Shown piece after piece: positions 7,210 through 40,204 of a DNA stretch of 64,000 nucleotides; the first letter of the stretch is position 1, and each line of letters starts with the position of its first letter. The DNA comes from an uncultured Acidobacteriota bacterium (GTDB lineage Bacteria; Acidobacteriota; UBA6911; CAINFC01). Location: the NCBI GenBank assembly GCA_903847975.1, contig CAINFC010000311.1:1-64000 (forward strand). The letters run 5' to 3'. The notes beneath the pieces are model-generated. The model had not been told where the DNA came from, made no database searches, and saw only the letters and a list, made by a program, of their open reading frames with translations. The position numbers and the translations under genes were made by a program.

Positions 7210-7791
7210 TTACGGCAGGTCCTGCGGGTAGTTGACGTTGCGCAGGATGCCGGCATCGTCCACGGGCACGGCCATCCGCCGGATTCCCGACGCACGGATC
7301 AGGGCCTGCAGTCCACCCTCCTGATCGGGTGAGATGGTTCCCTGGAGCAAAGACGCAGGTACCAGCACCGGGTGGCCGGAGCGCCCTGCGTGCTTCGGGA
7401 AAACCATGGCATCCGGCGTTTCGCGGAACGTGCGGAGCAGGCTCTCGTATGTTTCCGGCTGGACCAGCGGATGATCCACCGGAACTACCAGCAGGCCGCC
7501 CGCGGATTCTGCCGCCTTGCCGGCGCCCAGAACCAGGGATGAAAGCATCCCCAGTTCCGGTGAAGCATTCACCACCACCCGTGCCTGGGGACACTCCGCC
7601 TGAGCCCAGAGGGCAAACGGCGGCTGGACCACCACCACGATTTCATCCACCGAAGTAAGACAAAGGGACCGGCAGATCCGGCCGAGGAAGGAGTTCTCCC
7701 CGAGGCGCAGCGCCAGCTTGGGTCCGCCGGCACGGGTGCCGCTGCCGGCGGCGGCGATAATGGCCGCAACCCGCATGGCCGCACCGCTCAC
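7210..7791 (-). CDS. mocA: MocA/YgfJ-type molybdenum cofactor cytidylyltransferase
   Basis: 193-residue nucleotidyltransferase of the MobA/MocA family, which transfers CMP to molybdopterin to make the MCD cofactor used by xanthine-dehydrogenase-type enzymes. The nucleotide-binding loop AAAGSGTRAGGPKL is near residues 13-26. VPVDHPLV carries the metal-binding Asp, GRSGHPVLVP is the family motif, and DDAGILRNVNYPQDL closes the protein. GTG at 7791 overlaps the upstream stop as GTGA; ATG at 7776 (MRVAAII) is an equally likely start. It is the last gene of a segment with xdh subunits and ygeW, which fits cofactor maturation of the neighbouring hydroxylase. This matches YgfJ in the E. coli yge/ygf region. 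Confidence 0.85.
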   Translation of the reverse strand: MSGAAMRVAAIIAAAGSGTRAGGPKLALRLGENSFLGRICRSLCLTSVDEIVVVVQPPFALWAQAECPQARVVVNASPELGMLSSLVLGAGKAAESAGGLLVVPVDHPLVQPETYESLLRTFRETPDAMVFPKHAGRSGHPVLVPASLLQGTISPDQEGGLQALIRASGIRRMAVPVDDAGILRNVNYPQDLP

Positions 7792-9245
7792 ATCGATTCC
7801 ACCAGGGCGTTGAAATCCCGGATGCGGGCGTCGATGCCGGCTTCACCGCCTTCCAGGCGCTCCTGCCAGTAGTCCGGATCCCACTGCGCTTCCAGCTCCC
7901 GGCAGCTTTTTCCCTGCTGCTCCACCCAGGTGTAATACTTGAGATTGTGAATCGCCTGGCGGTCCTGCCAGGAAAGCTCCCGGAAGAAATCGGTCCGCTG
8001 GTGCTGCAGCGGCCCGGCAAAATCGCGCAGCGCCTGATCCCGGCCATAGGCCCCGCGGCTTTCGGAGAGTTCCTGCAACCGGGACTGATAGAGCTCGGCG
8101 GAGTCGGTGAAAACGGTCATGACGGTGTCATCGGCGCCGAGCTCGTAGTAGCGGGCGGTCTTGATCGCCGCCAGCAGGTTGCAGATCCCGGAGATTCCCA
8201 GCAGGGAAAGCCGCCGGCAGGTTTCCGCAGGAACTCCCCCCGCTTCCAGCACCCGCCATCCCTCGGGCTCGTTGAACAGCCGGAACAGCCGCAGGCAATC
8301 CTCGTCGTCGATGGCCGCCACGGCGTCGGTTTCCCGCACGTTGTGTACCCAGGGGACATGCTTGTCGCCGATTCCCTCGATACGGTGATCCCCGAAGCCG
8401 TTGCGGAACAGGGTGGGGCACTGCTGCGCTTCGACCGCGACGGTCTTCATGCGCGGATGGAGGGTTTTCAGGTAGTCGCCGGCGGCAATGGTGCCCGCCG
8501 AGCCGGTGGCGGATATGAAGGCGCTCAGCCGGGGCCGGCCGCCTCCCATGCCGGAAAAAAGCTCTCCGATGGCCGGGCCGGTCACGCTGTAATGAAAGAG
8601 CGGATTGCCGAATTCCTCAAACTGGTTGAAGATGACATTCCGCGGGTCCTTCTTCAGCTCCCAGCACTGGTCGTAAATCTCCTTGACGTTCGACTCGCAG
8701 CCGGGCGTGGCAATCACCTCGGCGCCGATCCGGCGCAGCCATGCGAAGCGCTCCGCCGACATCTGCTCGGGCAAAATGGCCACCGCGGTGCAGTCCAGCA
8801 GGGCGCAGTCGAAAGCTCCGCCACGGCAGAAATTTCCGGTGGAGGGCCAGACCGCCCTGTGGCTTTCCGGGTCGAACTCGCCGCTGACCAGCTTCGGGAT
8901 CAGGCATCCGAAGGCCGCCCCCACTTTATGGGCGCCGGTCGGAAAAAACTTTCCGGTCAGTCCGACCACGCGGGCCCGAACCCCGGTGAGGGCTTGCGGA
9001 ATTTCCAGGTGGTTGATGCCGGCGAAGGTGCCGCTCTCCAGGTCGTTCTTCCAGGTGATGCGGAAAAGGTTCAGCGGGTTGACGTCCCAAAGCCCCACGG
9101 CCGGGAGGCGGGAGCGGATCGACCCGGGTACCGTCTCCGGGTTGCGCATCTGGGCAAAGGTTGGAATGGTCACCCCCATCCGGCGGCACCGGCGGGCCGT
9201 GCGGCGGATGATTTCCTCGCGAAGGATGGCAGGGCGGTCGCTCAT
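7788..9245 (-). CDS. fold-type II PLP enzyme, TrpB-like, of the purine cluster
   Basis: 485-residue PLP enzyme. The motif FPTGAHKVGAAFG (about residues 102-114) resembles the Schiff-base lysine segment of tryptophan synthase beta (TGAHK). VWPSTGNFCRGGA corresponds to the substrate-binding loop and SATGSAGTIAAG to the phosphate-binding glycine loop. It lacks the FGLNAFKMLGG signature of YgeX diaminopropionate ammonia-lyase. ATG at 9245 overlaps the ygeW stop (ATGA) and its own stop overlaps the mocA start (GTGA), so the three are tightly coupled. Position next to ygeW suggests a beta-elimination on a 2,3-diaminopropionate-like product, but that is inference. A frame running further upstream is only open reading inside ygeW. 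Confidence 0.8.
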   Translation of the reverse strand: MSDRPAILREEIIRRTARRCRRMGVTIPTFAQMRNPETVPGSIRSRLPAVGLWDVNPLNLFRITWKNDLESGTFAGINHLEIPQALTGVRARVVGLTGKFFPTGAHKVGAAFGCLIPKLVSGEFDPESHRAVWPSTGNFCRGGAFDCALLDCTAVAILPEQMSAERFAWLRRIGAEVIATPGCESNVKEIYDQCWELKKDPRNVIFNQFEEFGNPLFHYSVTGPAIGELFSGMGGGRPRLSAFISATGSAGTIAAGDYLKTLHPRMKTVAVEAQQCPTLFRNGFGDHRIEGIGDKHVPWVHNVRETDAVAAIDDEDCLRLFRLFNEPEGWRVLEAGGVPAETCRRLSLLGISGICNLLAAIKTARYYELGADDTVMTVFTDSAELYQSRLQELSESRGAYGRDQALRDFAGPLQHQRTDFFRELSWQDRQAIHNLKYYTWVEQQGKSCRELEAQWDPDYWQERLEGGEAGIDARIRDFNALVESM

Positions 9246-10414
9246 CGGGACCCTCCGTCGCCGGCAAAAGGGAGAAGGGCCTCCGCCGGGTTGCCGAAGC
9301 GGGTAGCAAGGATCAGGGCGGCGATGACGAACGGCTTGTATCCTGCCTGGCGGTAGGTGGCGATGCGGTACTGCTCGAATACCTCCGCGGAAACCTCTCC
9401 CAGCGGGCAGCTCACGTCGGTGATGTCGGCCGGCAGGCAGTGCATGTAAAGCGCCTTTCCGTCCCGGGTGAGATTCATCTTTTTCCGGTCGCACTCCCAG
9501 TGCCGGTTGCGGGCGTTGGTGGCCAGGCATTCCTTCTCCAGCGTTTTCAGCCCCTCCCGGTCTCCCGCTTTCAGCAGCTCGGTGCGGCTCTGCATCACCA
9601 AGTAGGGAGCCCAGGATTTGGGGTAGACGATGTCGGCGTCCCGGAACGAATCCTCCATGGTTTCGACCTGGACGAAGGAGCCTCCGGAAGCGGAGCTCTG
9701 CCGGACGGCCCGCTCGACGGTCTCCGGAATCAGGCCGTAGCCTTCCGGGTGAGCCAGGGCCACGTGCATGCCCAGTCGGCTCATCAGGCCGATGACTCCC
9801 TGGGGGACCGAGAGAGGCTTGCCGTAGCTCGGCGAATAGGCCCAGCTCATGGCTATTTTCTTGCCGCGCAGGTTTTCGATTCCGCCGAAGTGGTCGGCCA
9901 GGTGCGCCAGGTCGGCCAGGGTTTGCGTGGGATGGTCGATGTCGCACTGCAGGTTGAGGACGCTCGGCCGCTGGTGCAGCACTCCCTGTTCGAACCCTTC
10001 CTGGACCGCCTCCCCGACCTGGCGCATGTAGCGGTTCCCTTCGCCGAGGTACATGTCGTCGCGAATCCCGATGACCTCCGCCAGGAAGGAAATCATGTTG
10101 GCCGTCTCCCGCACCGTCTCCCCGTGGGCGATCTGGCTCTTGACCTCGTCGAGCTCCGAAAGCCCCAGCCCCAGGGCGTTGGCAGCGGAGGCGAAGCTGA
10201 AGCGGGTCCGCGTGGAGTTGTCCCGGAAAATGGAGATGGCCAGGCCGGTACGGAATACGGGAAAGCGGCGCCCCGAGCGGTGCCAGTCCTTGAGCAGCCG
10301 GGCCAGGGCCAGAATCCCGCGGATGGTTTCGTCGTCATGTTCCCAGGTGAGCAGGAAGTCCCGGTGGCAGGTGTCGAAGCGCATCTCCTGCAGCGCGCGC
10401 AGCGTTTCGGTCAT
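9242..10414 (-). CDS. ygeW: knotted carbamoyltransferase YgeW
   Basis: 390-residue member of the aspartate/ornithine carbamoyltransferase superfamily, close to the size of E. coli YgeW. The carbamoyl-phosphate loop is STRTR (67-71). DHPTQTLADL supplies the His-Pro-x-Gln motif, and HCLPADITDVSCPLGEVS supplies the HCLP motif with the extended loop of the YgeW type. In the anaerobic uric-acid pathway YgeW is thought to act on ureido intermediates and yield carbamoyl phosphate, a source of ATP. ATG at 10414 is chosen because the family alignment begins there; 83 bases separate it from the Fe-S subunit gene and contain a hairpin. Cytoplasmic. Confident family call, substrate inferred from context. 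Confidence 0.93.
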   Translation of the reverse strand: MTETLRALQEMRFDTCHRDFLLTWEHDDETIRGILALARLLKDWHRSGRRFPVFRTGLAISIFRDNSTRTRFSFASAANALGLGLSELDEVKSQIAHGETVRETANMISFLAEVIGIRDDMYLGEGNRYMRQVGEAVQEGFEQGVLHQRPSVLNLQCDIDHPTQTLADLAHLADHFGGIENLRGKKIAMSWAYSPSYGKPLSVPQGVIGLMSRLGMHVALAHPEGYGLIPETVERAVRQSSASGGSFVQVETMEDSFRDADIVYPKSWAPYLVMQSRTELLKAGDREGLKTLEKECLATNARNRHWECDRKKMNLTRDGKALYMHCLPADITDVSCPLGEVSAEVFEQYRIATYRQAGYKPFVIAALILATRFGNPAEALLPFAGDGGSR

Positions 10415-10469
10415 GGTGTTTTCTGTTTTGCCTCCATGGGAGTAAGTGGTCGGAAGAATAAAGGAATGC

Positions 10470-10488
10470 CCGCGGCACCCCGCCGCGG
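10470..10488 (-). terminator. hairpin between the Fe-S subunit gene and ygeW
   Basis: CCGCGGC (10470-10476) pairs with GCCGCGG (10482-10488) around a 5-base loop. On the minus strand it follows the Fe-S subunit stop and is followed by a T-rich stretch. It may cause partial termination or mark mRNA processing, lowering ygeW expression relative to the hydroxylase. Confidence 0.45.
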
Positions 10489-10497
10489 CGTGCGGAT

Positions 10498-10962
10498 CTA
10501 TTTCCGGTAAAAAGGTGCGGCCCTCTCGACGGCCTCCACGATCTGCTGGTAGCCGGTGCAGCGGCAGAGGTTGTTGCGCAGGGCGGAGCGGATCTCCTCC
10601 CGCGTGGGAGCGGGGTGGCGCAGCAGCAGGGCGTGGGCCGTCAGGATCATGCCCGGCGTGCAGTAGCCGCACTGGACGGCGCCGGCATCGAGGAAAGCCT
10701 GCTGCAGCGGATGCAGGGAGCCGTCCGGCCGAAGCATCCCTTCGATGGTCAGCACTTTTTTGTCGAGGACGTCGCGGACCTCCAGCCGGCAGCTGCGCAC
10801 CGCCTTCCGGTCCACGAGCACGGTGCAGGACCCGCAGACGCCGATGCCGCAGGAGTACTTGGTGCCGGTGAGGTCCAGCTCTTCGCGCAGGAAATCGATG
10901 AGCCTCGTGCCCAGGGCTTCCCCGGAAACCTCCACCGGCTTGCGGTTCACGTGGACTTTCAC
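10498..10962 (-). CDS. xdhC: molybdenum hydroxylase 2x[2Fe-2S] subunit (XdhC/CoxS type)
   Basis: 154 residues, the usual size of the small iron-sulfur subunit. The N-terminal ferredoxin-like cluster uses CGIGVCGSC (38-46) plus a later Cys (RSC), and the second helical cluster uses QCGYCTPGM and CRCTGY. It passes electrons from the molybdenum centre of the partner subunit encoded just upstream, whose stop overlaps this start by ATGA (10959-10962). No FAD subunit is encoded with it, so electrons must leave through another protein. The best candidate in the window is the flavin/Fe-S protein at 25608-28097. Confidence 0.92.
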   Translation of the reverse strand: MKVHVNRKPVEVSGEALGTRLIDFLREELDLTGTKYSCGIGVCGSCTVLVDRKAVRSCRLEVRDVLDKKVLTIEGMLRPDGSLHPLQQAFLDAGAVQCGYCTPGMILTAHALLLRHPAPTREEIRSALRNNLCRCTGYQQIVEAVERAAPFYRK

Positions 10963-13247
10963 GACGGCTCCTTCCGGTCTGCCGGTGGATCTTCTGCCGA
11001 TGATTCGGAGGAAAGCGGATTCAGGATCGGGATCCGGAAATGGCGGATGCCGGTGGCGTTGTAAATCGCGTTGGCGATGGCCGGAGCCATGATCTCGTTG
11101 ACCGGTTCGCCGATGCTCTTGGCGCCCGAGGGGGACAGCGGATCCGGGTTCTCGATGATCACCGCCTGCATGTCGGGCAGCTGATCCGCTTTCAGAATGC
11201 GGTAGGTGTGAAAGTTGGTGTTGCGGATTTTCCCCTCCTCCATGCGGACCTCTTCCTGCAGGGCATAGCCGGCGCCCATGGCCATGCCGCCGTAGAACTG
11301 CCCCAGGACCATAGGCCGGTTGACCGCCCGGCCGACATCGTGCGCGGCGGTCATGCCGAGCAGGGTCACTTTTCCGGTGCGGCGGTTCACGGTCAGCTCG
11401 ACCGCCTGGCAGCCGTAGACCCAGGTGAAATAGGCGTCGCCCTGGCCGGTTTCCTCGTCCCAGGATACCTCCGGCGCCCGAAACATGCCGAAAGCAAAAG
11501 GAAATACGCGGGCTTTGTACATCTCCGCCATGGCCTCGGCGAAGGGGAGCGCCTGGCCGCGGCCGTGTACTGCCTCCCCCTCGAACCGGATCTCTTCCAT
11601 CGGGCAGCCCAGGCGCTGCGAGAGAGTCGTGGCGATCTTGCGCTTGAGCTCCCGGGCGGCCTGGACCACCGCCCCTCCGCCCATAATCGTGCCGCGGGAG
11701 GCCACGGTAGTGCCGCTGTCGGGAATGGTCGCGGTGCTGGACCGCTGCAGCCGGATCCGATCCGGCCGCACGCCCAGCTCGCGCGCCAGGACCAGGATCA
11801 TGGCGCTTTCCGCGCCCTGGCCGTTCTCATGCACCCCGACGTCGAGCAGGATGGATCCGTCCGCCTGGGCATTGACGGTTGCCGCCGTGAAATCGGCTCC
11901 TTCGGCACCCAGGCTGACGCCGCGGTAGCTCATGGCCAGTCCAATCCCATACAGCTCTTCTTCCTCGTCGCTGCCGTGGGAGCAGCGCTTTCTTTTTTCC
12001 TCGAAGGAGCTCGCCTCCCGCACGCGGTCCAGAGCCTCGCCCATGGCGACGCGATGCTGGTTCAGCTTCTGCCCGGTTATGGTCAGGCTGTCCTGCTGGA
12101 CCATGTTGAGGCGGCGGAATTCCACGGCGTCCATGCCCAGCTTCTCCGCCGCAATCTCCACCATCTGCTCCACGACGAAGTTCATCTGCGGCGAGCCGAA
12201 ACCGCGCATGGCCCCGGTAAAGACATTATTGGTGTAAACCCCCAGCGTGTCGCAGTGCACGTTTTCCACGGTGTACGGGCCGCAGCACTGCACCGTGGAG
12301 CGCCAGGTCACCCAGGGGGTGACCGAGCAGTAGGCCCCGCCGTCGGCCACGATGCGGCAATGCACGGCGCGGATGATTCCGTCGCGGCGTACGCCCATCC
12401 GGTAACGGACCCGGTAGGGGTGGCGCTTGTAGCTTTCCCGCATGGACCACTCGCGGTCGTAGGTCATTTTCACCGGGCGGCCGAGCAGCCGCGCGGCAAG
12501 CGCGGCACGGGCGCAGACCAGGGCGGCGGTGTCGTCCTTGCCGCCGAATCCGCCCCCCAGCGGGGTGCCGACGACTTCCACGTTCGCCAGAGGCTCCCCA
12601 AGGGTGCCCGCCACGAAGCGCCGGGTGCTGAAGGGGTGCTGCATGCTGCCCCGCACTTCCATAACTCCGTCGGGCCGCGGCAGACAGACCGCCGCTTCCG
12701 TTTCCAGGTAGGCATGCTCGACGTGCTGGGTCTGGAAGTCGTGCTCCAGGATGAAATCCGATTCGCCAAACCCTCTTTCGATATCCCCACGGCGCACCCG
12801 GTGGGTGTGGATCAGGTTCGAGCCGTGCTGCTCGTGAACCGGCACGGCATCGGGCCGCAGGGCCTCTTCGGGATCCAGGACCGCGGGCAAAGGCTCGGCG
12901 ACGACCTCTACCAGGGCGGCGGCGGCAACGGCCTGAACCCGGGTCCGGGCCACGACGATGGCGATCACGTCCCCGTGGTACCGGATTTTATCATCCGCCA
13001 GAACCGGCATATCCTTCCGGATCTGCCCGTGGCGGTTGGCGCCGGGAATGTCCCGGGCGGTGAGGATCCGGATCACGCCTTCGGCGGCTTCCGCGGCCCC
13101 GGTACGGATGGTCCGGATCCGGGCGTGCACGAAGTTCGAGTAGACCGGCACGGCATGCAGCAGGCCGGGGAGCTTGAGGTCGTCGGTGTATCGGGCCGCA
13201 CCGGTAACCTTGGCAACGGCATCGTTGCGCCAGGCGCGATCAGGCAC
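10959..13247 (-). CDS. xdhA: molybdopterin-binding subunit of a xanthine-dehydrogenase-family hydroxylase
   Basis: 762-residue Mo subunit. The N-terminal hammerhead domain (about 10-120) includes VTGAARYTDDLKLPGLLH. The Mo-binding part has GGGFGGKDD, AMRGFGSPQ (substrate Arg) and AKSIGEP with the likely base Glu714. At the position of bovine Glu802 (GGKET) this protein has Asp238, which hints at a purine-like substrate other than xanthine or a selenium-dependent type as in other yge/ygf clusters. GTG at 13247 begins the conserved PDRAWRNDAV segment. A good promoter lies at 13334-13363, and the gene heads the segment xdhA-xdhC-ygeW-PLP enzyme-mocA. Subunit letter follows common use for this cluster; substrate is unproven. 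Confidence 0.9.
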   Translation of the reverse strand: MPDRAWRNDAVAKVTGAARYTDDLKLPGLLHAVPVYSNFVHARIRTIRTGAAEAAEGVIRILTARDIPGANRHGQIRKDMPVLADDKIRYHGDVIAIVVARTRVQAVAAAALVEVVAEPLPAVLDPEEALRPDAVPVHEQHGSNLIHTHRVRRGDIERGFGESDFILEHDFQTQHVEHAYLETEAAVCLPRPDGVMEVRGSMQHPFSTRRFVAGTLGEPLANVEVVGTPLGGGFGGKDDTAALVCARAALAARLLGRPVKMTYDREWSMRESYKRHPYRVRYRMGVRRDGIIRAVHCRIVADGGAYCSVTPWVTWRSTVQCCGPYTVENVHCDTLGVYTNNVFTGAMRGFGSPQMNFVVEQMVEIAAEKLGMDAVEFRRLNMVQQDSLTITGQKLNQHRVAMGEALDRVREASSFEEKRKRCSHGSDEEEELYGIGLAMSYRGVSLGAEGADFTAATVNAQADGSILLDVGVHENGQGAESAMILVLARELGVRPDRIRLQRSSTATIPDSGTTVASRGTIMGGGAVVQAARELKRKIATTLSQRLGCPMEEIRFEGEAVHGRGQALPFAEAMAEMYKARVFPFAFGMFRAPEVSWDEETGQGDAYFTWVYGCQAVELTVNRRTGKVTLLGMTAAHDVGRAVNRPMVLGQFYGGMAMGAGYALQEEVRMEEGKIRNTNFHTYRILKADQLPDMQAVIIENPDPLSPSGAKSIGEPVNEIMAPAIANAIYNATGIRHFRIPILNPLSSESSAEDPPADRKEPS

Positions 13248-15274: not shown

Positions 15275-16627
15275 TCAGGGGCGCTGGCAGAGGATTCCGC
15301 GGGGAGCGGCTTCTTTTATGAGCTGCCCTTCCAGCATCACCGGGGTTCCCCGGAGAATGACCGCGCGAATGTCCAGCACCGCCGGAAAGCCGGGATAGGT
15401 CTCGTGGCAATCGGAGAGGCTGGAGCGGATCGATGCTTCGGGTTTCCTGGTACCCACCAGGACCAGGTCGGCATCGCTCCCCACGGCAATCGTACCTTTC
15501 CGTGGCCACAGCCCGGAAACCCGGGCCGGATTTTCGGAAAGCATCCGCACCAGGGAAGGAATCGCCCCGGGATTCGGCCAGCCCAGGAGCTGAGCGGCCA
15601 GGTGGGGAAGGGCTCCGATTCCGGCAATGCCGTTGGGAACCGTGCGGATATCGGCGGATGCGCCGTCCTTGTCTTGCCGCCGAAAGGCGCAGTGGTCGGT
15701 GGCCAGCAGATCGAAGCACTCCTGACGGGCGGCCTCGGCCAGGCTGGCCCGGTTTTCTGCGGAGCGCAGCGGCGGGGAGCATAGCCAGCGATGCCCGTCC
15801 GCACGATGCAGCCAGGATTCGTCCAGGAAGAGGTACTGGGGGCCGGTCTCGCAGGTGACGGGGGCGTCCTGGCGTGCGGCCCGGATCCTTTGCGCTCCCT
15901 CCCGTGTGCTGACGTGGACGAAATGGAGGCGGATGCCGATGCGCCGGGCGATAGGGAGAATGCGGCCGATGGCCTCGATTTCCGCTTCCGGCGGCCGCAT
16001 CCGCGCGTGGGTCGGGGGACGGAAAAAATCGAGTTCTGCGGAACCGGCCGTGCAGAGCGTTTCTTCATCTTCGGCGTGGACCAGACAGCCGGCCCCGGCG
16101 GCGGCCAGACGCTGAAAAATCGTTTCCAGCTCTTCGTAGCTGCAGAAGAGACCGGCCTGGCGGTAGGTGGTATAGAACTTGAAGGTCCGGAATCCGCAGC
16201 GGGCTTTCTCCAGGATGATTTCCCAGTCCGCCGGCAGAAACCGGGTAGGTGTGAGGTGCAGCCCGTAGTCGCACCAGAGGTTTCCTGCGGCTTTGCGCCT
16301 CGCCCGTGCATGGGCCTCGTCCAGCGATTCCGGGGGTTGCTGGGTGACGAAATTGAACAGCGTGGTGATGCCGTTGCGAACGGCAATCTCCGTTCCGCTC
16401 CGGCAGCTGTCGGCCAGATCGAAGGATCCGATGCGGTCCTCCAGGTGGGTGTGCAGGTCCATAAAGCCGGGAAGAACGATGGCCCCGCGGGCGTCCAGAA
16501 CGGCATCCGGCGCAAACCCCACCGGCATCGAACCGATGGCCAGGATACGCCCCTGGAATAGGGCCAGACCCAGCGGCTCGAGGCGACCCTGCCGCCACAG
16601 CAGACCGTTGACGATCGCGAATTTCAT
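15275..16627 (-). CDS. hyuA: hydantoinase/dihydroorotase-like amidohydrolase (HyuA/YgeZ role)
   Basis: 450-residue cyclic amidohydrolase with a complete binuclear metal site: GFMDLHTHLED (His-x-His), FKFYTTY (the Lys that becomes carboxylated), LVHAED (His), HFVHVST (His) and LLATDHCAF (Asp). The family opens cyclic amide rings such as hydantoins, dihydropyrimidines or dihydroorotate. In the anaerobic uric-acid cluster the hydantoinase opens a ring of a purine-derived intermediate. ATG 16627 overlaps the stop of the threonine-synthase-like gene (ATGA), and that gene follows ygeY by one base, giving the operon ygeY - PLP enzyme - hyuA. The gene symbol is by context. Confidence 0.88.
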   Translation of the reverse strand: MKFAIVNGLLWRQGRLEPLGLALFQGRILAIGSMPVGFAPDAVLDARGAIVLPGFMDLHTHLEDRIGSFDLADSCRSGTEIAVRNGITTLFNFVTQQPPESLDEAHARARRKAAGNLWCDYGLHLTPTRFLPADWEIILEKARCGFRTFKFYTTYRQAGLFCSYEELETIFQRLAAAGAGCLVHAEDEETLCTAGSAELDFFRPPTHARMRPPEAEIEAIGRILPIARRIGIRLHFVHVSTREGAQRIRAARQDAPVTCETGPQYLFLDESWLHRADGHRWLCSPPLRSAENRASLAEAARQECFDLLATDHCAFRRQDKDGASADIRTVPNGIAGIGALPHLAAQLLGWPNPGAIPSLVRMLSENPARVSGLWPRKGTIAVGSDADLVLVGTRKPEASIRSSLSDCHETYPGFPAVLDIRAVILRGTPVMLEGQLIKEAAPRGILCQRP

Positions 16628-17799
16628 GGCTGCAGGCAGCGAAGAGGGGTTTCCGTGTCCTTGAGTCCGTTGCCGGTGAGCAGCAGAACGATCTGCTCCT
16701 GCGGATCGATCCCGCCGGAATCCCGCAGGGCCGGGAGCGCGGCCGCCGCTGCGGCCGCCGCCGGCTCGGCGAACAGGCCGGTCAGGCGGCCCAGCAGAAA
16801 AATGGCGGACCGGATCTCTTCCTCCGAAACCGTAACCGAGGTGCCCCCGCTTTCCAGAACGGCCCGGCGGGCGCCGTGGGCGTTGCTGGGGGTGCGCACG
16901 GAGATGGAATCGGCGCAGGTGACCGGATTCCGGGCATCCCGGTAGACGCCCGTATGGACGTAGCGGTGAATGGCATCGGAGCTTGCCGCCTGCACGGCCA
17001 CCAGGCGCGGTACCCGGTCCGTCAGGCCCGCCTCGCGCAAGTCGGCGAAAGCCTTGGCGATTCCCGCCAGGATTACGCCGTCGCCCACCGGAACCAGGAT
17101 GACGTCCGGAACCCGCCAGCCGTTCTGCTCGAAAATTTCCAGTCCGGCGGTTTTCTTTCCCTCGATGGTCAGCGGATGATAGGCCGTGTTGCGATTCAGA
17201 CCTCCCCGCACCCGGGTGTGCTCCAGGGAGAGGGCGAAGGCGTCGTCGTAGGTCCCGTCGACGGGGAGGACCTCGGCGCCGAAGACCTTCATCTGCAGCC
17301 GCTTGGCCGGCGGCGCCGCGGCAGGAACATAGATGACCGCTTTTTTGCCGGCGGCGGCGCAGACCGCGGCCAGAGCCGCGGCGGCATTGCCGGTGGAGGC
17401 GGTCACGATGAGGTCCTCGCGCCGCCGGATGGCTTCGGCCACCACCAGGAAGGAGGCACGGTCTTTGAGCGAGCCGCTGGGATTCAATCCGTCATTTTTC
17501 ACCCAGAGGCTGGCCAGCCCGAAGTGCCGGCCCAGCGCATCGATGGGGAAGAACGGGGTGCGGCCCACCGGGAAAGGCGGATAGAACTCGGCTTCCACGG
17601 CGGAGAAAAGCTCCCAGTCCGGCTCGGACGGCCGGAAGCGCCGTCGGATGAAATCGTAATCGAAGCGCGCGGACAGAACCCCGGGGAGCGGAATTCCCGG
17701 ACGGTAGCCGGCGGAGCAGGAAGGGCAAAGATAAGTGACCTGGCTGCGCTCGTATTCCCGTCCGCAGTCGCTGCAGCGGTAAAGAAAGGGGGCGTTCAT
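16624..17799 (-). CDS. threonine-synthase-like fold-type II PLP enzyme of the purine cluster
   Basis: 391 residues. The N-terminal zinc ribbon has two CxxC pairs (YRCSDC and YLCPSC, residues 8-33). NPSGSLKDRAS carries the PLP lysine (canonical NPTGSFKDR), TASTGNAAAALAA is the Ser/Thr-Gly-Asn loop and PVGDGVILAG is the phosphate loop. The family includes threonine synthase and diaminopropionate/cysteate-type enzymes. Sitting between ygeY and hyuA with one-base spacing and an ATGA overlap, and with no thrA/thrB nearby, a catabolic beta-elimination role is more likely than threonine synthesis. It may stand in for YgeX; this cannot be proved from sequence. Confidence 0.82.
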   Translation of the reverse strand: MNAPFLYRCSDCGREYERSQVTYLCPSCSAGYRPGIPLPGVLSARFDYDFIRRRFRPSEPDWELFSAVEAEFYPPFPVGRTPFFPIDALGRHFGLASLWVKNDGLNPSGSLKDRASFLVVAEAIRRREDLIVTASTGNAAAALAAVCAAAGKKAVIYVPAAAPPAKRLQMKVFGAEVLPVDGTYDDAFALSLEHTRVRGGLNRNTAYHPLTIEGKKTAGLEIFEQNGWRVPDVILVPVGDGVILAGIAKAFADLREAGLTDRVPRLVAVQAASSDAIHRYVHTGVYRDARNPVTCADSISVRTPSNAHGARRAVLESGGTSVTVSEEEIRSAIFLLGRLTGLFAEPAAAAAAAALPALRDSGGIDPQEQIVLLLTGNGLKDTETPLRCLQP

Positions 17800-17800
17800 C

Positions 17801-19006
17801 TCACCTGCCGTGCAGCCGGGCCACCAGGGCGGCGTAAAAGGCGGCGGCTTCCGTCAGCTGCCCGATCGGGCAGGCCTCGTTGGCGGCGTGGGCGTAAACT
17901 TCATTCCCGGGGCCCAGCCCGATGCACGGGATTCCGTGCCGGCCGGCGATGGCCACCCCGTTGGTGCTGAAGGTCCACTGGCCGATCTGCGGATCCCTGC
18001 CCAGGACGCTGCGGTAGGCTTCCGCCGCAGTCCGCAGCGGCTTCGCGTCTTCCGGCAGAAGCCAGGTGGGGTAGTATTTTTCCGTGGGGTACACCTTGCC
18101 GGTGTAGGCCGGCTCTTCGTACCGCAGGACATTCACTTCGGCTTCCGGGCAGCCGGCCCGGGCGGCCGCTGCCCTCACCTCGGCCACGGCGCTTTCTGCA
18201 TCCTCTCCGAGGGTCAGCCGGCGGTCCAGGTGCAGGCTGCTCCCGTCGGGCACCGCGCAGAGCGAAGGGGAGGAGGAGCGGATTTCGGTCACCGTGATGG
18301 ATCCCTTGCCGAGACAGGAATCGGAGGCGAGGCGCGCATTCAGCTTTTCCACTTCCAGGGCAATGCGCGCGGCTTTGTAAATGGCGTTGTCGCCGCGCTC
18401 GGGAGCCGAGCCGTGGCAGCTGCGTCCCCTTGCCTCCACGCGGATTTCCATGCGGCCGCGCTGCCCGCGGTACAGGTTCAGATCGGTGGGCTCGGTGATG
18501 ACCGCCAGCTCGGGGCGCAAGCCGTCGACTTCGATCAGGTGCTGCCAGCATAGGCCGTCGCAGTCCTCCTCCATCACCGTGCCGGTAAAATACAGGGTGA
18601 AAAGGGAGTTGAGGCCCAGCTCCCGGATAACGGCGGCCGCGCAGAGCATGCTGGCCATGCCCCCTTTCTGGTCTACCGAGCCGCGGCCCCATACCTTGCC
18701 CTCCCTGACTACGGGCCGGTAGGGATCGAAGTTCCACTGGGAGCGATCGCCCTCCAGGACGGTGTCCACGTGGGCATCAAAGGCGATGGCCCGCGGCCCG
18801 CAGCCCAGCGTTCCGATGACGCTCCCCAGCTCGTCCACCCGGACCGTGTCGAAGCCCGTGCGATGCATTTCTTCGGCGATCCGCTCCACAACCTCTTTTT
18901 CCCGGGCGGAAAAGGAGGGGATGCGGATCAGGTCGCATAAGAAGCGAACCGTCTGCGGTTCTTTTTGTTGGGCCAACTCTCTGATTTGCTCGTAAACCGT
19001 GTTCAT
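17801..19006 (-). CDS. ygeY: YgeY family M20 hydrolase
   Basis: 401-residue metallohydrolase of the M20 peptidase/deacetylase family. Metal ligands and catalytic residues are visible in AFDAHVDTV (His, catalytic Asp), GRGSVDQKGGMASM (bridging Asp), MEEDCDGL (catalytic Glu plus ligand), ITEPTD (ligand Glu) and the C-terminal GPGNEVYAHAANE (His). The STNGVAIAGRHGIPCIGLGPG segment is typical of YgeY. In the uric-acid cluster YgeY is assigned to removal of a ureido/carbamoyl group from a C3 diamino compound. ATG 19006 has AGGAG at good spacing; the open frame further upstream lacks family similarity. A promoter lies at 19043-19072. First gene of the ygeY-PLP enzyme-hyuA operon. Confidence 0.92.
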   Translation of the reverse strand: MNTVYEQIRELAQQKEPQTVRFLCDLIRIPSFSAREKEVVERIAEEMHRTGFDTVRVDELGSVIGTLGCGPRAIAFDAHVDTVLEGDRSQWNFDPYRPVVREGKVWGRGSVDQKGGMASMLCAAAVIRELGLNSLFTLYFTGTVMEEDCDGLCWQHLIEVDGLRPELAVITEPTDLNLYRGQRGRMEIRVEARGRSCHGSAPERGDNAIYKAARIALEVEKLNARLASDSCLGKGSITVTEIRSSSPSLCAVPDGSSLHLDRRLTLGEDAESAVAEVRAAAARAGCPEAEVNVLRYEEPAYTGKVYPTEKYYPTWLLPEDAKPLRTAAEAYRSVLGRDPQIGQWTFSTNGVAIAGRHGIPCIGLGPGNEVYAHAANEACPIGQLTEAAAFYAALVARLHGR

Positions 19007-19042
19007 CTGTGTCTCCTGGCTGCAATGTTTTTGTCCGGATTC

Positions 19043-19072
19043 ACTATAAGCCAATCCGGGGGACAAACGCAA
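19043..19072 (-). promoter_or_regulatory. putative promoter for the ygeY operon
   Basis: Minus strand: TTGCGT (19067-19072), an 18-base spacer, TATAGT (19043-19048). The leader to the ATG would be about 30 bases. It is divergent from the rmuC promoter. Confidence 0.5.
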
Positions 19073-19108
19073 TCGAGGCTTATGCAGCAAATGCCGGCAA
19101 AGTGGCGC

Positions 19109-19137
19109 TTGACGAACCGCCGCTCCTTGCGTAATCT
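19109..19137 (+). promoter_or_regulatory. sigma70-type promoter for rmuC
   Basis: TTGACG (19109-19114), a 17-base spacer and TAATCT (19132-19137), about 80 bases before the rmuC ATG. Confidence 0.6.
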
Positions 19138-19216
19138 GTTTGATGATGCAAAACCCGTTGCCGCCGGCTGATCCGGCTGGAAAGGCCGCCATGACCCGAT
19201 ATCGCCCGGAGCCGCT

Positions 19217-20596: not shown

Positions 20597-24259
<3,663 letters not shown>

Positions 24260-24263
24260 GGTG

Positions 24264-25604
24264 CTAGGCTCCCATTCTTTCGTAAAGGCGTGCGGCCAGC
24301 TCCCGGCAGCGCGCGGCGGCCTCGGCTTCGTCCACGTCGATGGTCAGTTTCCGGTTGTGCATGAGCACCCAGCCGCCCACAATGGTGGTGTCCACCGGCT
24401 CCTGCGAAATGCCGTAGAGGATGTGGGCGTAGGCATTCCGGTCGTGCAGGGGGGTGCGTGGCTGGTAGGGGATGCCCACGATGTCCGCCAGGGCACCTTC
24501 TTTCAGCTCGCCCATCGGCAGATCCCAATGCCGCTGGGCGATCAGGGCGTTGTTGAGAAGCAGGGTACGGCATACTTCCAGGAAGGCCGCCGAAGGGTTC
24601 CCGGCTCGCAGATGCTGCGCCCAGAGTGCGGTACGCAGTTCCTCGGTCATATTCATGGTCATGCCGTCGGTTCCCAGCCCGACCGGAATGCCCGCCTGCT
24701 GCCAGCCGGGCAAGTCGCCGATGCCGACGGCGTTGTTCAGGTTGGATTGCGGATTGTGAGCCACGCCGGTTCCGGTTTCCCCCAGGATTTCCATCTCCCG
24801 CCGGTCGATATGGACGCAGTGCGCAGCGATGGTCCGCGGCCCGAGCAGTCCGAACCGGTGCAGCCGCTCGATCACTCCGACGCCGTGCCGGTCGCGGGTC
24901 CGTTGCTGGTCCGCCGGGCTTTCCGCCGCGTGGATATGAAAGCCGCAATCCAGCTCCCTGCCCAGAACGGAGGCGGCTTCCAGCGTTTCATCCCCCAGCG
25001 TGAAGGAAGCGTGCAGGCCGAAAAGAGCGCGAAGCCGCGGATTGTTTGCCTCGCGGCAGTAGCGGATGAACTGCGCATTCTCCTCCAGCCCCTGCCTGGC
25101 TTTTTCGGCGCCGTCCCGGTCGGAAACCTCGTAGCACAGGCAGGCGCGGATCCGGGTCCGCTTGACCGCCGAGGAGATGTGCTCCAGGGACTCCCCGATG
25201 GCGCCGGGGCTGGCATGGTGGTCGAAAACGGTGGTCACCCCATGACGGATTCCGTTGATCAGCAGGAGCAGGGCGCTGTAATAGCAGTCCTCGGGGGTCA
25301 GGGCCTTATCCAGCCTCCACCATAAGTGCTGCAGCTTTTCGACAAAATCCCGGGAGGGCGGCACTCCCTCCATTCCGCAGGCCATGGCGCTGTAAAGATG
25401 GGTATGCAGGTTGATGAAACCGGGCAGGAGCACCATCCCCCGGGCATCCAGTTCATATTCGAACGGCTCGTGAAAGCCGGACTCGTCGGCAATGCGCTGG
25501 ATAATGCCGTTCTGTATCCACAGGGAGCAGCCGGTCCGGACCTTGGGGTCCGGACCGAGGGTAATTAACGTTCCGTTTCGGATCAGAAGTGAGGGAGAAA
25601 GCAT
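24264..25604 (-). CDS. ssnA: putative aminohydrolase SsnA
   Basis: 446-residue metal-dependent deaminase of the amidohydrolase superfamily (ATZ/TRZ-like). Metal and catalytic residues: [35 protein letters not shown] and [15 protein letters not shown]. The last, with WWRLDKAL near residue 95, is characteristic of SsnA. The family removes amino groups from aromatic or purine-like rings. ssnA is a constant member of the yge/ygf and anaerobic uric-acid clusters. It is preceded by the DPD-like gene (3-base gap) and followed by metH (4-base gap). Exact substrate is not evident from sequence. Confidence 0.93.
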
Positions 25605-25607
25605 AGT

Positions 25608-28097
25608 TCAATCTTCCGGTGTGAGGGAGCGCTCGCCCGCGGTACGATCGCGCATGGCCAGGGCTCCGGAAAAACATTTCCTGACGCAGAGGGAACAGCC
25701 GATGCACCGTCGCGCATCGAATCGCGGAACCCTGCGCCGGTCGAGCCTTACCGCCTGGTAGGGGCAGCGGGTGCAGTTGCCGCAGTTCCGGCACAGGGCG
25801 GTACGACAGGCCGGGATCTGCTTATCGGCGGATAACTCCTCGAAGGGGGTGACGGGCTGCGGGAGGGCCGAGCCGATCAGCTCCCGTACGGAGCGCATGC
25901 CGCGCTCCTGCAGCAGGAAGCTCAGCCCCGACTGGAGCTCCTGGATCACTGGCAGCCCGTATTTCATAACGATAGTGCAGAACTGAACGGTCCTGGCCCC
26001 GAGAGCCAGGAAACGGGCTGCGGCCCGATAGTCCATCGGACCTCCGTTGCCGGATATGGAAAGCCCTTCGGATGCCGCTTTGGCCAGAGTCAGGTAGCTG
26101 ATCGGCAGGATCCCTTCCCCGGAAAGGCCGATGACCACGCCTTCCTCTCCCATGCCGTTCGGGTGGGGCCGAAAAGCCAGGGAGGGGAAGCTGTTGGCCA
26201 GGGTGATTCCCGCCCTTTTCCCCGGGTGGCGTGCAAACACTTTCCCGACCGACTGCAGGATAGCCCGGATGGAAGTGACCGCCCCGGAAAGCTTGAACAG
26301 CTTGGGAATTTCGTCCTGCCCGCACTGCAAAACCCAGTCGATAACCTGTGCGGTTGCTTCGGCGTCCTGGGAGAGAATGTCCCCCTTGGTGCCGTCGCCC
26401 CCCTGCGGGCAGGAGAGACTGTATTCGATTCCCATGGCTCCCGCCGATTCCAGCTTGCGGGTGTTGGACTGCCACCCGCGGCAATCGGCCTCGGCATGGC
26501 CGGTCACCGGGCCGCCGGTGGAAGCCATGGTCAGCCGGTCCGGGTAAGTCCGGACAAGCCGTTCGACTTCCCGGCAGACGCGGTCCAGCGGGTGGGCGGA
26601 GACGTTGTCGCAGTTGCCGTAGGTGCGTTCGGCCAGCACGAACATGTAGCTTCCCGGGATATGGATAGGGGTGCCGTCGAAGGCGGTTTTCATGATAGCC
26701 CCGGGCCATCCGGCTTCGTACGCCCGGGCAACCTGCTCGTATCCGTCGGTATGCGGAGCGGCGGAGAGCAGGAACGGGGCGGAAATCGGGCGGCCGAAGA
26801 AGTCGGCATCGAGGGGCACCGGCTGGAGAATCCGACCGGGCAGAAGGGCAAAGCTTTTGTTGGAGGCCAGGTGGTTGGGGGGCGCCTGTCCCTGCAGCCA
26901 GGCATCGGCGCGGACCGCGGCATTTTTGCCGGAGGCCACCGCTTCCACCACGGTTGCGGCGCCGTGAACCCGGTCGCCTGCCGAAAAAAGGCCCTCCGCC
27001 GGGGAATCGGGAAGGCCGGCCCGGCTGCCGATGGCGGCAATCACCAGGTCGTAGGGCTTGAAAAAAGGCCGGGACCCGGGGGCTGGAAGGAAATTGGCGG
27101 GCAGCGGCTCCTTGCCTGCGGGAAGCTGCAGAGATTCGAGCTCCAGGCCAAAGACTTTATTTTCCCGGACGCGTACCCGCCGAACGCGGACGCAGGGAAA
27201 AACATCAACCCCGTATCGCAGCATCAGGTCGCGCTCGTATGAGGTCAGCGGCATGTTTTCCTGCCGGCGCCTGTAGATCAGTTCTACGCCGGCGGCTCCC
27301 CTCTCGCGGGCGGTGACCGCGCAGTCCACGGCGATGGCGCCACCGCCCACAATGGCCACCTGCCGGTTTTGGGTGCAGTAGCGATCGGGACGGAGGAGGT
27401 AGTCTTCCCAGCGGACTGCTTTTTCCTGGCCCGGTGCGGAAAGAGAAATGGGGATGTCAAGGCCGGAAGCCAGGATCACGGCATCAAAATGCTTTCGCAG
27501 AACATCCGGGGATGCGACCGCCTGGCCGAAGCGATAGCGGATATCCCCCAGCCGGCGCAGAAACCGCAGGTCGGTTTCCAGGACATTCTTGTCCAGCCTC
27601 AAATTCGGAATAAGCCGGCACATGCCGCCCGCCCGCCGTCGTTTTTCGAAAACAACGACCTGGTATCCCTTTTGGGCCAGCAGGGCCGCGGCGCCCAGGC
27701 CGGCGGGTCCGGCACCCAGAACGGCAATTTTTCTGCCGTTGGGCCGCGGCGGAGTGAACGGCTGCAGTCCGGCTTTTTTGGCCCGGGCAATGATGGCGGC
27801 TTGCACGGCGGGGATTCGGATCGGGTGGTCAAAAAGCCGGCGGGCACAGGCCTGCATGCAGAGGGTATCCGGACAAACCGCCCCGCAAACGCCGCCCAAG
27901 GGGTTGGCCGCCAGGATCTGCGCGGCGGAACGTCGAAAATCGGCGCTTGAGCCCATCCGGGCGGCCATGATGAAGTCGGCCGGGGAGCAGTCTGCCGGGC
28001 AGGCCTTCTGGCAAGGTTTGTCCTCGCAATATTCACAGCGCCACAGCTCGGAGGAAAGCTGCGCGTCGGTCAGGTTACAGGTTTCTTTCGCTTTCAT
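25608..28097 (-). CDS. dihydropyrimidine-dehydrogenase-like flavin/Fe-S oxidoreductase (YgfK-like role)
   Basis: 829 residues in the order of animal DPD. The N-terminal Cys-rich Fe-S region has CEYCEDKPCQKACPADC (about 21-37) and GGVCGAVCPDTLCMQAC. A GltD/PreT-like FAD and NAD(P)H module follows (about 120-420; VLGAGPAGLGAAALL and AIVGGGAIAVDCA). The FMN-binding PreA/dihydroorotate-dehydrogenase barrel (about 430-760) has LLSAAP and IEYSLSCPQG, and the tail is a two-cluster ferredoxin (CRNCGNCTRC, CIGCSLCVRKC). E. coli YgfK has the barrel first and the GltD-like part second, so this is a different arrangement. Where DPD has its catalytic Cys (13 residues after the Cys of LSCP) this protein has Ser576. 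It probably reduces a purine-derived ring or accepts hydroxylase electrons; inference from position. Confidence 0.85.
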   Translation of the reverse strand: MKAKETCNLTDAQLSSELWRCEYCEDKPCQKACPADCSPADFIMAARMGSSADFRRSAAQILAANPLGGVCGAVCPDTLCMQACARRLFDHPIRIPAVQAAIIARAKKAGLQPFTPPRPNGRKIAVLGAGPAGLGAAALLAQKGYQVVVFEKRRRAGGMCRLIPNLRLDKNVLETDLRFLRRLGDIRYRFGQAVASPDVLRKHFDAVILASGLDIPISLSAPGQEKAVRWEDYLLRPDRYCTQNRQVAIVGGGAIAVDCAVTARERGAAGVELIYRRRQENMPLTSYERDLMLRYGVDVFPCVRVRRVRVRENKVFGLELESLQLPAGKEPLPANFLPAPGSRPFFKPYDLVIAAIGSRAGLPDSPAEGLFSAGDRVHGAATVVEAVASGKNAAVRADAWLQGQAPPNHLASNKSFALLPGRILQPVPLDADFFGRPISAPFLLSAAPHTDGYEQVARAYEAGWPGAIMKTAFDGTPIHIPGSYMFVLAERTYGNCDNVSAHPLDRVCREVERLVRTYPDRLTMASTGGPVTGHAEADCRGWQSNTRKLESAGAMGIEYSLSCPQGGDGTKGDILSQDAEATAQVIDWVLQCGQDEIPKLFKLSGAVTSIRAILQSVGKVFARHPGKRAGITLANSFPSLAFRPHPNGMGEEGVVIGLSGEGILPISYLTLAKAASEGLSISGNGGPMDYRAAARFLALGARTVQFCTIVMKYGLPVIQELQSGLSFLLQERGMRSVRELIGSALPQPVTPFEELSADKQIPACRTALCRNCGNCTRCPYQAVRLDRRRVPRFDARRCIGCSLCVRKCFSGALAMRDRTAGERSLTPED

Positions 28098-35661: not shown

Positions 35662-36472
35662 TTACGAGGAGACTCTTGCTTTTCTGGCCGAAGCAGGGGG
35701 GGATGACCTGGACGCGCTAACCCTGTCCGAGGTGGTCATCGGCAGCTGCCTTTGTGCCGTAAGGCTTTCCGATGGCAGCGCGGGCGTGGCGGCCACCCTG
35801 ACGGAACACGGCGGTTTCCACGGAAAGGGGAGCCGCGATTTCGGCGAATTCACGCCTCTCCGGATCCGGGGACGAAGGGTGAGGGACCTGCTCTATTCCG
35901 AAAAGGACAGCCAGGAGGTGAAGGCGCTCCAGATCGCCGCCCTGAATGCCCTTTCTTGCTCCATGATCCGCGGCGGACCGTACCCGGTTGAGGAAGACCG
36001 TGACCCGGTCGACCTCCTGGGCGATCTTCGCGGAAAAAGGATATACCTCGTGGGAGCCTTCCCCTCCTATATCCGCCGGTTCCGGGAAGAGGGCTGCGAT
36101 TTCTCGGTCCTGGAGAGGAACCCGAGTGCCCTGAAGCCCGAACACCAGGAGCATTTTGTCCCGGCAGAACACTACGGAAGGGTTCTGCCCGGTGCGGAAA
36201 TTGTGATCCTTACCGGCCAGACCCTGGTCAACCGGACCATCGACGCTCTCCTCGGCGCGGTGTCGCCGGGAGCCGTGGTGGTGGTTACCGGACCTTCCTG
36301 CGGTGCGGTCCCCGACATTCTCTTCCGCTACGGGGTATCGATTGCCGGCAGCCTGTTGATCACCGATCCGGCGATGATGCTTGCCGTGGCTGCCGAGGGA
36401 GGCACAGGCTACCACCTGTTTCATTATTGCGCGCGGAAGATGGTTCTGGTCAACCCTAGCGGCCGGGTTTGA
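35657..36472 (+). CDS. DUF4213/DUF364 (putative heavy-metal chelation) protein
   Basis: 271 residues. The N-terminal half has the DUF4213 look (VVIGSCLCAVRLSDGSAGVAAT). The C-terminal half is a Rossmann-like DUF364 domain (KRIYLVGAFPSYIRRF, AEIVILTGQTLVNRTID, VVVTGPSCGAVPDILF, VSIAGSLLITDP). The family is thought to bind metals or metal chelates, and members are often found near molybdenum enzymes. Here it overlaps the 3-prime end of a xanthine dehydrogenase large-subunit gene by 17 bases, convergently. GTG 35657 lies inside a direct repeat and lacks a well-spaced ribosome site, so the start is not certain. Confidence 0.78.
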   Translation: MIYEETLAFLAEAGGDDLDALTLSEVVIGSCLCAVRLSDGSAGVAATLTEHGGFHGKGSRDFGEFTPLRIRGRRVRDLLYSEKDSQEVKALQIAALNALSCSMIRGGPYPVEEDRDPVDLLGDLRGKRIYLVGAFPSYIRRFREEGCDFSVLERNPSALKPEHQEHFVPAEHYGRVLPGAEIVILTGQTLVNRTIDALLGAVSPGAVVVVTGPSCGAVPDILFRYGVSIAGSLLITDPAMMLAVAAEGGTGYHLFHYCARKMVLVNPSGRV

Positions 36473-38759: not shown

Positions 38760-40204
38760 GGCGCCTGCCCGCTTCGGGTATCGGACCAGAATTTGAGCAG
38801 CAGGTTCGCGGCTACCTGCCGCCGGAATCCGGCGCTGCCGCGCACGTCGGAGATCGGCTGGAAATCCTCCTGCAGCCGGGCCGCAGCTTCCTCCGCCGCA
38901 GCGCGCGACCACTCTTTCCCGAGCAGCGCCTGTTCCGCGCCGGCGGCCCGCCGCGTAAAGGGGGACATCCCGCCAAAGACCAGCCGTGCCTCGCGGATGC
39001 GGCCGTCGGAATCCAGCTGCAGCCGAAAAGCGCCATTGACGGTGGAAATATCGACGTCATGGCGCCGCGAAACCTTATAGGCACGAATCCGCGCGCCGGG
39101 AGGAGGGAAGGGAAGTCGCACGGCGGCGATGATTTCCCCGGGGGCTATTCCGGTCCGGCGGTAACCGAGAATGAAATCGGAAAGGGGGACGGTGCGGCTC
39201 CCGGCGAGGCTTTTCAGTTCCACGGCGGCGCCATAGGCCATCAGGGCCGGCAGCGCATCCCCGATGGGCGATGCGGTTCCTACATTTCCGCCGAGCGTGG
39301 CCACATTGCGGATCTGAGCCGAACCGAAGCGCTGCAGCATTTCTTCGAGCGCCGGATGGGTGCGGCGGACATGTCCGGCGACGTCGGACAGGCTCATCCC
39401 GGAGCCCAGGATCAACTCTTCTTTTTCCTGCCGGGAAGCCCGTAGCTCCGGAATCGCGCTGAGGTCCAGGATGCCCGGCGGGGGATTGTGTTTCAGGTGC
39501 ACCTGCAGCGAAAGGTCGGTGGCGCCATGGACCGGCGAGAGGGTCGGGTTCCTGCCAATCATCTCCAGCGCCTGCTCCAGGGATTTCGGCCGGCAGTAGA
39601 TTTCTGACTTTCCGGTCCATTCCCATTCCGCAGGCGGAATGGAGTTCAGCTCAGCCAGGGTCGAGCCCTCTTCCGACGATTCACGTTCCGGTCCCGAGAG
39701 GGCGAGGCACTGTTGCGCCGCGCGGAAGATGGGCTGGTAGCCCGTGCAGCGGCACAGGTTGCCGGCCAGGGCGGAGCGGATTTCTGCGGCGGAAGCGTGC
39801 GGCTTTTGCTTGAAAAGAGCAAAGAGGGTCATGACGACCCCCGGGGTGCAGAATCCGCACTGGCTGCCGTAATGATCGATCATGGCCTGCTGGACCGGGT
39901 GAAGCGAACCATCCGGGAATTTCAGGTCTTCGACCGTCAGCACCTGCCTGCCGTGGACCATGGGCAGGAACAGGAGGCAGGAGTTAACGGCGCTATATTT
40001 CAGTCGGCCTTCCCTGTCCGGTTCTGCCAGGACTACGGTACAGGCCCCGCAATCCCCCTGGCCGCATCCCTCCTTGGTGCCTTTGCGATCCGGGAGAGAG
40101 CGGAGGTACTGGAGCAGGGTCCATGCCGGAGACCACGCAGCGGAGCCGCAGAAATCGATGGTGACCGGCTTTCTGCCCAGGAGGAAGGAAATCGTGGACG
40201 GCAT
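38756..40204 (-). CDS. xdhA: xanthine dehydrogenase Fe-S/FAD subunit
   Basis: 482 residues. The N-terminal [2Fe-2S] domain has CGQGDCGACT (about 47-56), the second cluster domain has QCGFCTPGV and CRCTGYQ, and the FAD domain (about 200-470) has VHGATDLS and RNVATLGGNVGTASPIGDALPAL, the flavin-binding signature. Electrons pass from the Mo subunit through two clusters to FAD and then to NAD. It is encoded 26 bases after GMP reductase and just before the Mo subunit. Unlike the hydroxylase at 10.5-13.2 kb, this enzyme has its own FAD domain, so it should be a conventional xanthine dehydrogenase. The same symbol is used for an unrelated subunit in the first cluster. Confidence 0.95.
   Translation of the reverse strand: MPSTISFLLGRKPVTIDFCGSAAWSPAWTLLQYLRSLPDRKGTKEGCGQGDCGACTVVLAEPDREGRLKYSAVNSCLLFLPMVHGRQVLTVEDLKFPDGSLHPVQQAMIDHYGSQCGFCTPGVVMTLFALFKQKPHASAAEIRSALAGNLCRCTGYQPIFRAAQQCLALSGPERESSEEGSTLAELNSIPPAEWEWTGKSEIYCRPKSLEQALEMIGRNPTLSPVHGATDLSLQVHLKHNPPPGILDLSAIPELRASRQEKEELILGSGMSLSDVAGHVRRTHPALEEMLQRFGSAQIRNVATLGGNVGTASPIGDALPALMAYGAAVELKSLAGSRTVPLSDFILGYRRTGIAPGEIIAAVRLPFPPPGARIRAYKVSRRHDVDISTVNGAFRLQLDSDGRIREARLVFGGMSPFTRRAAGAEQALLGKEWSRAAAEEAAARLQEDFQPISDVRGSAGFRRQVAANLLLKFWSDTRSGQAP

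Follow-up and report, generated by a model that had tools for sequence, protein, structure and literature searches.

We found a gene for a fused PreT-PreA-type protein of 829 amino acids at positions 25608..28097 on the minus strand of a 64,000-nucleotide stretch of DNA from an uncultured Acidobacteriota bacterium (hereafter the window, meaning the whole stretch analysed). We annotate the product as a predicted NAD(P)H-dependent yanthine reductase. The open reading frame list agrees with the extent given in a first-pass annotation of this DNA. Pfam and NCBIfam matches place Fer4_20 and Pyr_redox_2 domains in the N-terminal half (residues 9-360). In the C-terminal half, a PreA-like FMN barrel (residues 429 to about 750) is followed by two 4Fe-4S motifs (residues 769-812), the PreA-like stretch covering residues 429-820 overall. 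The same annotation had described an Fe-S/GltD-like module first and an FMN barrel plus ferredoxin last, as in dihydropyrimidine dehydrogenase (DPD) and in the reverse order to E. coli YgfK, and the domain matches bear this out on both counts. The solved relative matching best by sequence is pig DPD (1gt8, E 2e-52), which is also the best solved relative in a fold search (7ljt, E 6e-50, TMq 0.73). Gln99 lies at the position of the DPD cluster ligand Gln156, and the N-terminal Fe-S cysteines are conserved. The protein reaches the cut-off of neither the PreA equivalog NF006183 (188.2 bits; cut-off 335) nor the YgfK model TIGR03315 (140.9 bits; cut-off 835.3). PF01180 is absent from the window protein at E 0.001 but gives a weak match in 12 of 16 relatives, so whether published surveys overlooked the fused family is a point on which we make no firm claim.

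The reductase gene lies directly upstream of ssnA (24264..25604, minus strand), with 3 bases between the reductase end and the ssnA start. The encoded aminohydrolase scores 480 bits against NF005540 (cut-off 444) and is 35% identical to E. coli SsnA, which opens dihydroyanthine (PMC12507026). The gene had been assigned to the YgfK slot, and it is indeed found beside ssnA in a reductive urate cluster, where E. coli has YgfK. Also on the minus strand are ygeY, encoding an M20 hydrolase (17801..19192; NF009555, 519.7 bits against a cut-off of 321; 53% identity to E. coli YgeY), and, in the ygeX position, a PALP enzyme that is a candidate diaminopropionate ammonia-lyase (16624..17799; PF00291, 253 bits). 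They are accompanied on this strand by a hyuA-like cyclic amidohydrolase gene (15275..16627; TIGR02033, 259 bits, below the cut-off) and, inside the urate cluster, by a gene for a permease of the KdgT (2-keto-3-deoxygluconate transporter) family (13407-14360), possibly a transporter for a pathway compound. The same strand carries a xanthine-dehydrogenase-type molybdenum subunit, a candidate urate-to-yanthine reductase (10959..13247; MoCoBD_1 and MoCoBD_2), and the 2Fe-2S subunit of the molybdenum enzyme (10498..10962; PF01799, E 8.5e-34). A ygeW-like carbamoyltransferase gene (9242..10672, minus strand; PF02729/PF00185; 63% identity to E. coli YgeW) probably has its real start near 10426, and a MobA-like NTP transferase (MocA-like, molybdenum cofactor) is encoded at 7210..7791 on the minus strand (PF12804, E 3.9e-32). 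Copies of the PALP enzyme that are 57-66% identical occur in the clusters of other phyla (loci L056, L057, L069, L072, L073, L075 and L077). The molybdenum subunit is 60-67% identical to those in the L072, L073, L075 and L077 clusters, and hyuA-like copies in other clusters are 37-49% identical. Together, these genes make up the set known from the reductive urate pathway. The residue Glu606 of E. coli XdhD falls in an insert that is absent from all other enzymes compared, even the clostridial ones, and the regiochemistry of the window Xdh is therefore not readable from it. Because E. coli XdhD and the Xdh subunits encoded here are not alike, we only infer yanthine, rather than another purine, as the product of the latter.

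Several other open reading frames were observed in and around the cluster. A metH-like cobalamin methionine synthase ORF (20597..24259, minus strand; ORF list and sequence reading) immediately follows ssnA in the same orientation and has no known role in the urate pathway; a plus-strand rmuC gene separates it from ygeY. Between the ygeW-like and MobA-like genes is an ORF at 7788-9947 on the minus strand whose second half encodes a cysteine-synthase-like PALP domain, making it a second PALP candidate of the cluster. A second xanthine-dehydrogenase-type molybdenum subunit is encoded at 36456-38912 on the minus strand and shares 32% identity with its counterpart in the urate cluster. The sole PF00860 (xanthine/uracil permease) gene found in the genome is outside the urate cluster (G000:C208:37477-38595, L315).

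The first-pass annotation had placed Ser576 at the position of the proton-donating cysteine of DPD. Ser576 does lie 13 residues past the cysteine of the LSCP motif. However, the proton donor of DPD is Cys671 (PMC8097209; catalytic also in PMC3674756), and our alignment shows that the LSCP cysteine is itself residue 671 in pig DPD numbering, kept in the window protein as Cys563. The C671A and C671S structures of DPD alter exactly this letter. The LSCP cysteine is kept in all 60 fused-family members and in 39 of 39 PreA proteins. Thirteen residues past it, DPD has Cys684, a cysteine common to none of the 39 PreA proteins, all of which carry Val, Met, Leu or Ile there; the uracil-type PreA proteins have Val/Met-Gly at Cys684/Gly685. 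Ser576 aligns opposite DPD Gly685, because the loop of the fused family is one residue shorter. A likeness to Ser-type dihydroorotate dehydrogenases had also been drawn, but the serine of the E. coli class 2 enzyme aligns with Cys671, where the window protein has cysteine. The Ser-for-Cys observation is thus an alignment error, a mis-count. The Ser576 equivalent is present in 59 of 60 counted family members, and this conservation, together with the spacing from the LSCP cysteine, is what would favour an enzyme in which Ser576 replaces the catalytic cysteine, as in class 2 dihydroorotate dehydrogenases. With the catalytic cysteine retained, with aliphatic residues or Met at the Cys684 position of PreA proteins, with Ala at Ser576 in L069 and L210 and with the dihydroorotate dehydrogenase serine elsewhere in the alignment, such an enzyme is scarcely credible. 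We rejected Ser576 as the acid/base residue. For YgfK, the MAFFT alignment of its barrel with PreA is poor around the loop and gave no trustworthy match and no LSCP loop there, so we make no claim on its proton donor.

We found the substitutions that set the fused family apart elsewhere in the pocket. In the DPD complex 1H7X, Asn609 contacts N1 and O2 of the pyrimidine, Thr737 contacts O2, Asn736 contacts N3 and O4, and both Asn668 and Ser670 contact O4 (PMC10970046). In DPD numbering, Asn609 (Asn495 of the window protein), Ser670, Cys671 and Asn736 (Asn635) are invariant in 60 family members, and position 737 has Ser or Thr. Ser (Ser560) takes the place of Asn668 and Asp (Asp497) that of Glu611, each in 60 of 60. 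Among the PreA proteins that we compared from outside ssnA loci, 36 of 36 keep Asn668, and none has the Asp611/Ser668 signature. UacX-type proteins have Ser at 668 in 10 of 10 cases and lack the Cys loop. The residues facing N1-C2(=O)-N3, an edge that uracil shares with 2,8-dioxopurine, are thus kept and one O4 reader is lost, and the pocket change of weight would be Asn668 to Ser together with Glu611 to Asp. Against the O4-reader argument, Asn736 also contacts O4 yet is kept in the fused family. The Glu611 to Asp change is hard to interpret, because in 1H7X it is the backbone O of Glu611 that touches 5-FU. In the AlphaFold model of the window protein, the active-site loop (residues 564-573) has a pLDDT below 50, a confidence too low for pocket geometry to be read from the model.

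A neighbourhood survey (SsnA scan, named genomes), a check the first-pass annotation had proposed, places orthologues beside ssnA across many phyla. Such ssnA-adjacent orthologues are found in Elusimicrobia, Acidobacteria/Aminicenantes, Bacteroidetes, Bdellovibrio, UBP16 and alpha- and deltaproteobacterial MAGs. Their barrels are 57-66% identical to that of the window protein, and several loci contain the whole cluster (L069, L072, L077). Within the stretches examined at 80 named ssnA loci, neither YgfK nor UacX was found together with a fused protein. In Acidobacteriota, the fused family occurs in 10 of 297 genomes, and all 10 have an SsnA match, compared with 43 of the 297 overall (Fisher p 1.5e-9, in a test that ignores relatedness). 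Reductase and ssnA are adjacent in 6 of the 10; ssnA is on another contig than the reductase in three Acidobacteriota genomes of one genus and in some others, and in genomes where the ssnA contig is cut, the reductase is mostly on another contig. In Elusimicrobiota, 53 of 248 genomes have the fused family, and ssnA lies beside it on the same strand in all 29 loci examined. Many of the carriers are groundwater, fen or soil MAGs according to the sequence-record descriptions.

We also investigated the PreA-like proteins of 299 Bacillota genomes with about 9 kb of flank on each side where the contig allowed. Asp611 and Ser668 are present in 17 of 17 PreA-like proteins of Bacillota urate clusters, whereas every Bacillota PreA-like protein from a locus that lacks ssnA, be it a pyrimidine cluster or another setting, retains Asn668. 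In a tree built with the two signature columns (611 and 668) left out, the fused and the split urate-linked proteins form one clade of 17 rows (95/96), and the fused family is nested inside it. Grouping the fused family with pig DPD was rejected (p-AU 0.004). This phylogeny indicates that the fusion took place among split PreT/PreA proteins of a urate-linked clade, independently of animal DPD. With 2.3 changes per column, the branch leading to the fused family is long, and the exact sister of the family is therefore uncertain.

It was only in 2025 that the reductive urate pathway was solved; the yanthine reductases assayed were YgfK and UacX, and an F420-type enzyme was proposed in Chloroflexota (PMC12507026). 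In this pathway, yanthine is formed by XdhD and reduced by YgfK or UacX, after which SsnA opens the ring (PMC12507026). The reductase adjoining SsnA thus acts on yanthine in both E. coli (YgfK) and C. difficile (UacX), the two enzymes for which formation of ureidomethylhydantoin from yanthine with SsnA has been shown (PMC12507026). On operon context and sequence, the window protein is probably the yanthine (2,8-dioxopurine) reductase of this anaerobic pathway. The first-pass annotation had proposed a substrate other than uracil, for example a purine-derived ring, and this conclusion is supported by the SsnA operon context, the cross-phylum co-occurrence with SsnA, the Asn668 substitution and the published yanthine biochemistry of YgfK and UacX. 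The acid/base argument offered there does not hold, since 60 of 60 family members retain the catalytic cysteine. The candidates named there, urate and xanthine, are near, but 2,8-dioxopurine is likelier. In the proposed mechanism, NAD(P)H would reduce FAD, and electrons would pass through the 4Fe-4S clusters to FMN. The FMN N5 would then deliver a hydride to C6 of the yanthine ring and Cys563 a proton to C5, the same chemistry as that of DPD on uracil. This putative atom mapping matches the CH2 and CH of the ureidomethylhydantoin released by SsnA. Asn609, Asn736 and Thr/Ser737 would hold the N1-C2(=O)-N3 edge common to uracil and yanthine, and Ser in place of Asn668 is expected if C4 belongs to the fused imidazolone ring. 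Hydrolysis of the reduced product by SsnA would pull the reaction forward.

The protein could also be an ordinary dihydropyrimidine dehydrogenase, which would reduce uracil and thymine with NAD(P)H in the Pyd pathway and whose gene would stand beside ssnA by chance. Its architecture and catalytic cysteine are as in DPD, the cluster includes hyuA, which is dihydropyrimidinase-like, and the genome has no other PreA match. Yet the neighbours are ssnA, ygeY and ygeW and not a pyrimidine cluster, the score of 188 bits is far below the PreA equivalog cut-off of 335, residue 668 is invariably Ser in the family and Asn in the PreA proteins outside ssnA loci, and the protein falls in the urate-linked clade. 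All this makes an ordinary DPD quite improbable. A different possibility is that the enzyme directly reduces another ring of the pathway (urate, xanthine or 8-oxo-hypoxanthine) and that the Xdh-type enzyme has a different job. Proof of which step follows which comes only from E. coli and clostridia (PMC12507026, PMC12990295), and the unreadable Xdh regiochemistry of the window cluster leaves room for this. We consider it unlikely, since SsnA is conserved, so that the same reduced product is expected, and the known pathway is highly specific for urate (PMC12990295).

We compared the window protein with the closest known systems. With DPD, PreT-PreA and PydA it shares the domain order, the 4Fe-4S/FAD/FMN relay, the Gln cluster ligand, the LSCP catalytic cysteine, Asn609 and Asn736; it differs from DPD in Ser at 668, Asp at 611, the SsnA-linked operon and the independent fusion. 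With E. coli YgfK it has in common the slot beside ssnA, the predicted flow from NAD(P)H through FAD to FMN and the predicted reaction, but its domain order is reversed and its TIGR03315 score is far under the cut-off. Like UacX of C. difficile, it has a PydA-type barrel encoded beside ssnA and Ser at DPD position 668, whereas UacX has neither the FAD module nor the Cys loop and forms a clade separate from the fused family (100/100). A family X1 of the DHOD/DPD superfamily was described in hyuA-ygeW-ygeY-ssnA-xdh clusters (Barba et al. 2013, PMC4016543) and is apparently UacX. Family X1 branches before PreA/PydA (PMC4016543), as UacX does in our tree, whereas the position of the fused family is within the PreA side. 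With class 2 (Ser-type) dihydroorotate dehydrogenase the common feature is the FMN barrel superfamily, and the serine of that enzyme corresponds to the Cys563 position.

Li et al. (2025) listed YgfK, UacX and an F420-type enzyme as reductases and named six SsnA phyla, among which Acidobacteriota are not mentioned in the text (PMC12507026). We found no prior description of the fused form or of its residue signature in the literature searched, which covered the pathway papers incompletely. The fused family would supply a reductase for the urate clusters of Acidobacteriota, Elusimicrobiota and other phyla. Somewhat more likely than not, the fused proteins and the Bacillota split proteins together represent a third class of yanthine reductase, separate from YgfK and UacX, NAD(P)H-linked, Cys-type, marked by Asp611/Ser668 and found mainly in environmental phyla. 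If so, reductive urate degradation would be common in the environment at large instead of being confined to the gut. The groundwater, fen and soil carriers bear on the question of whether the urate pathway is of ancient origin or a recent adaptation to the gut (PMC12990295). Residues 611 and 668 could serve as a two-residue test for telling urate-linked PreA/DPD homologues apart from those that reduce uracil; the former would tend to be labelled dihydropyrimidine dehydrogenase by automatic annotation.

Other arrangements of the reductase genes were also observed. The Bacillota loci L275-L288 and L291 are urate clusters in which the PreT/PreA-like pair is split and has the Asp611/Ser668 signature, usually with at least one xdh gene. 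In L289 and L290 (Bacillota) and in L095, a full YgfK gene and a PreA-like gene are both beside ssnA in urate clusters. The PreA-like proteins of L289 and L290, two of the 17 mentioned above, have Phe for Cys671 (ECSISFPHG), which may mean that they have lost catalysis or serve YgfK. In L082, L083, L089 and L117, the clostridial ssnA neighbours match YgfK, are about 570-590 amino acids long and have no PreT/GltD-like match; these are predicted to be barrel-only YgfK forms.
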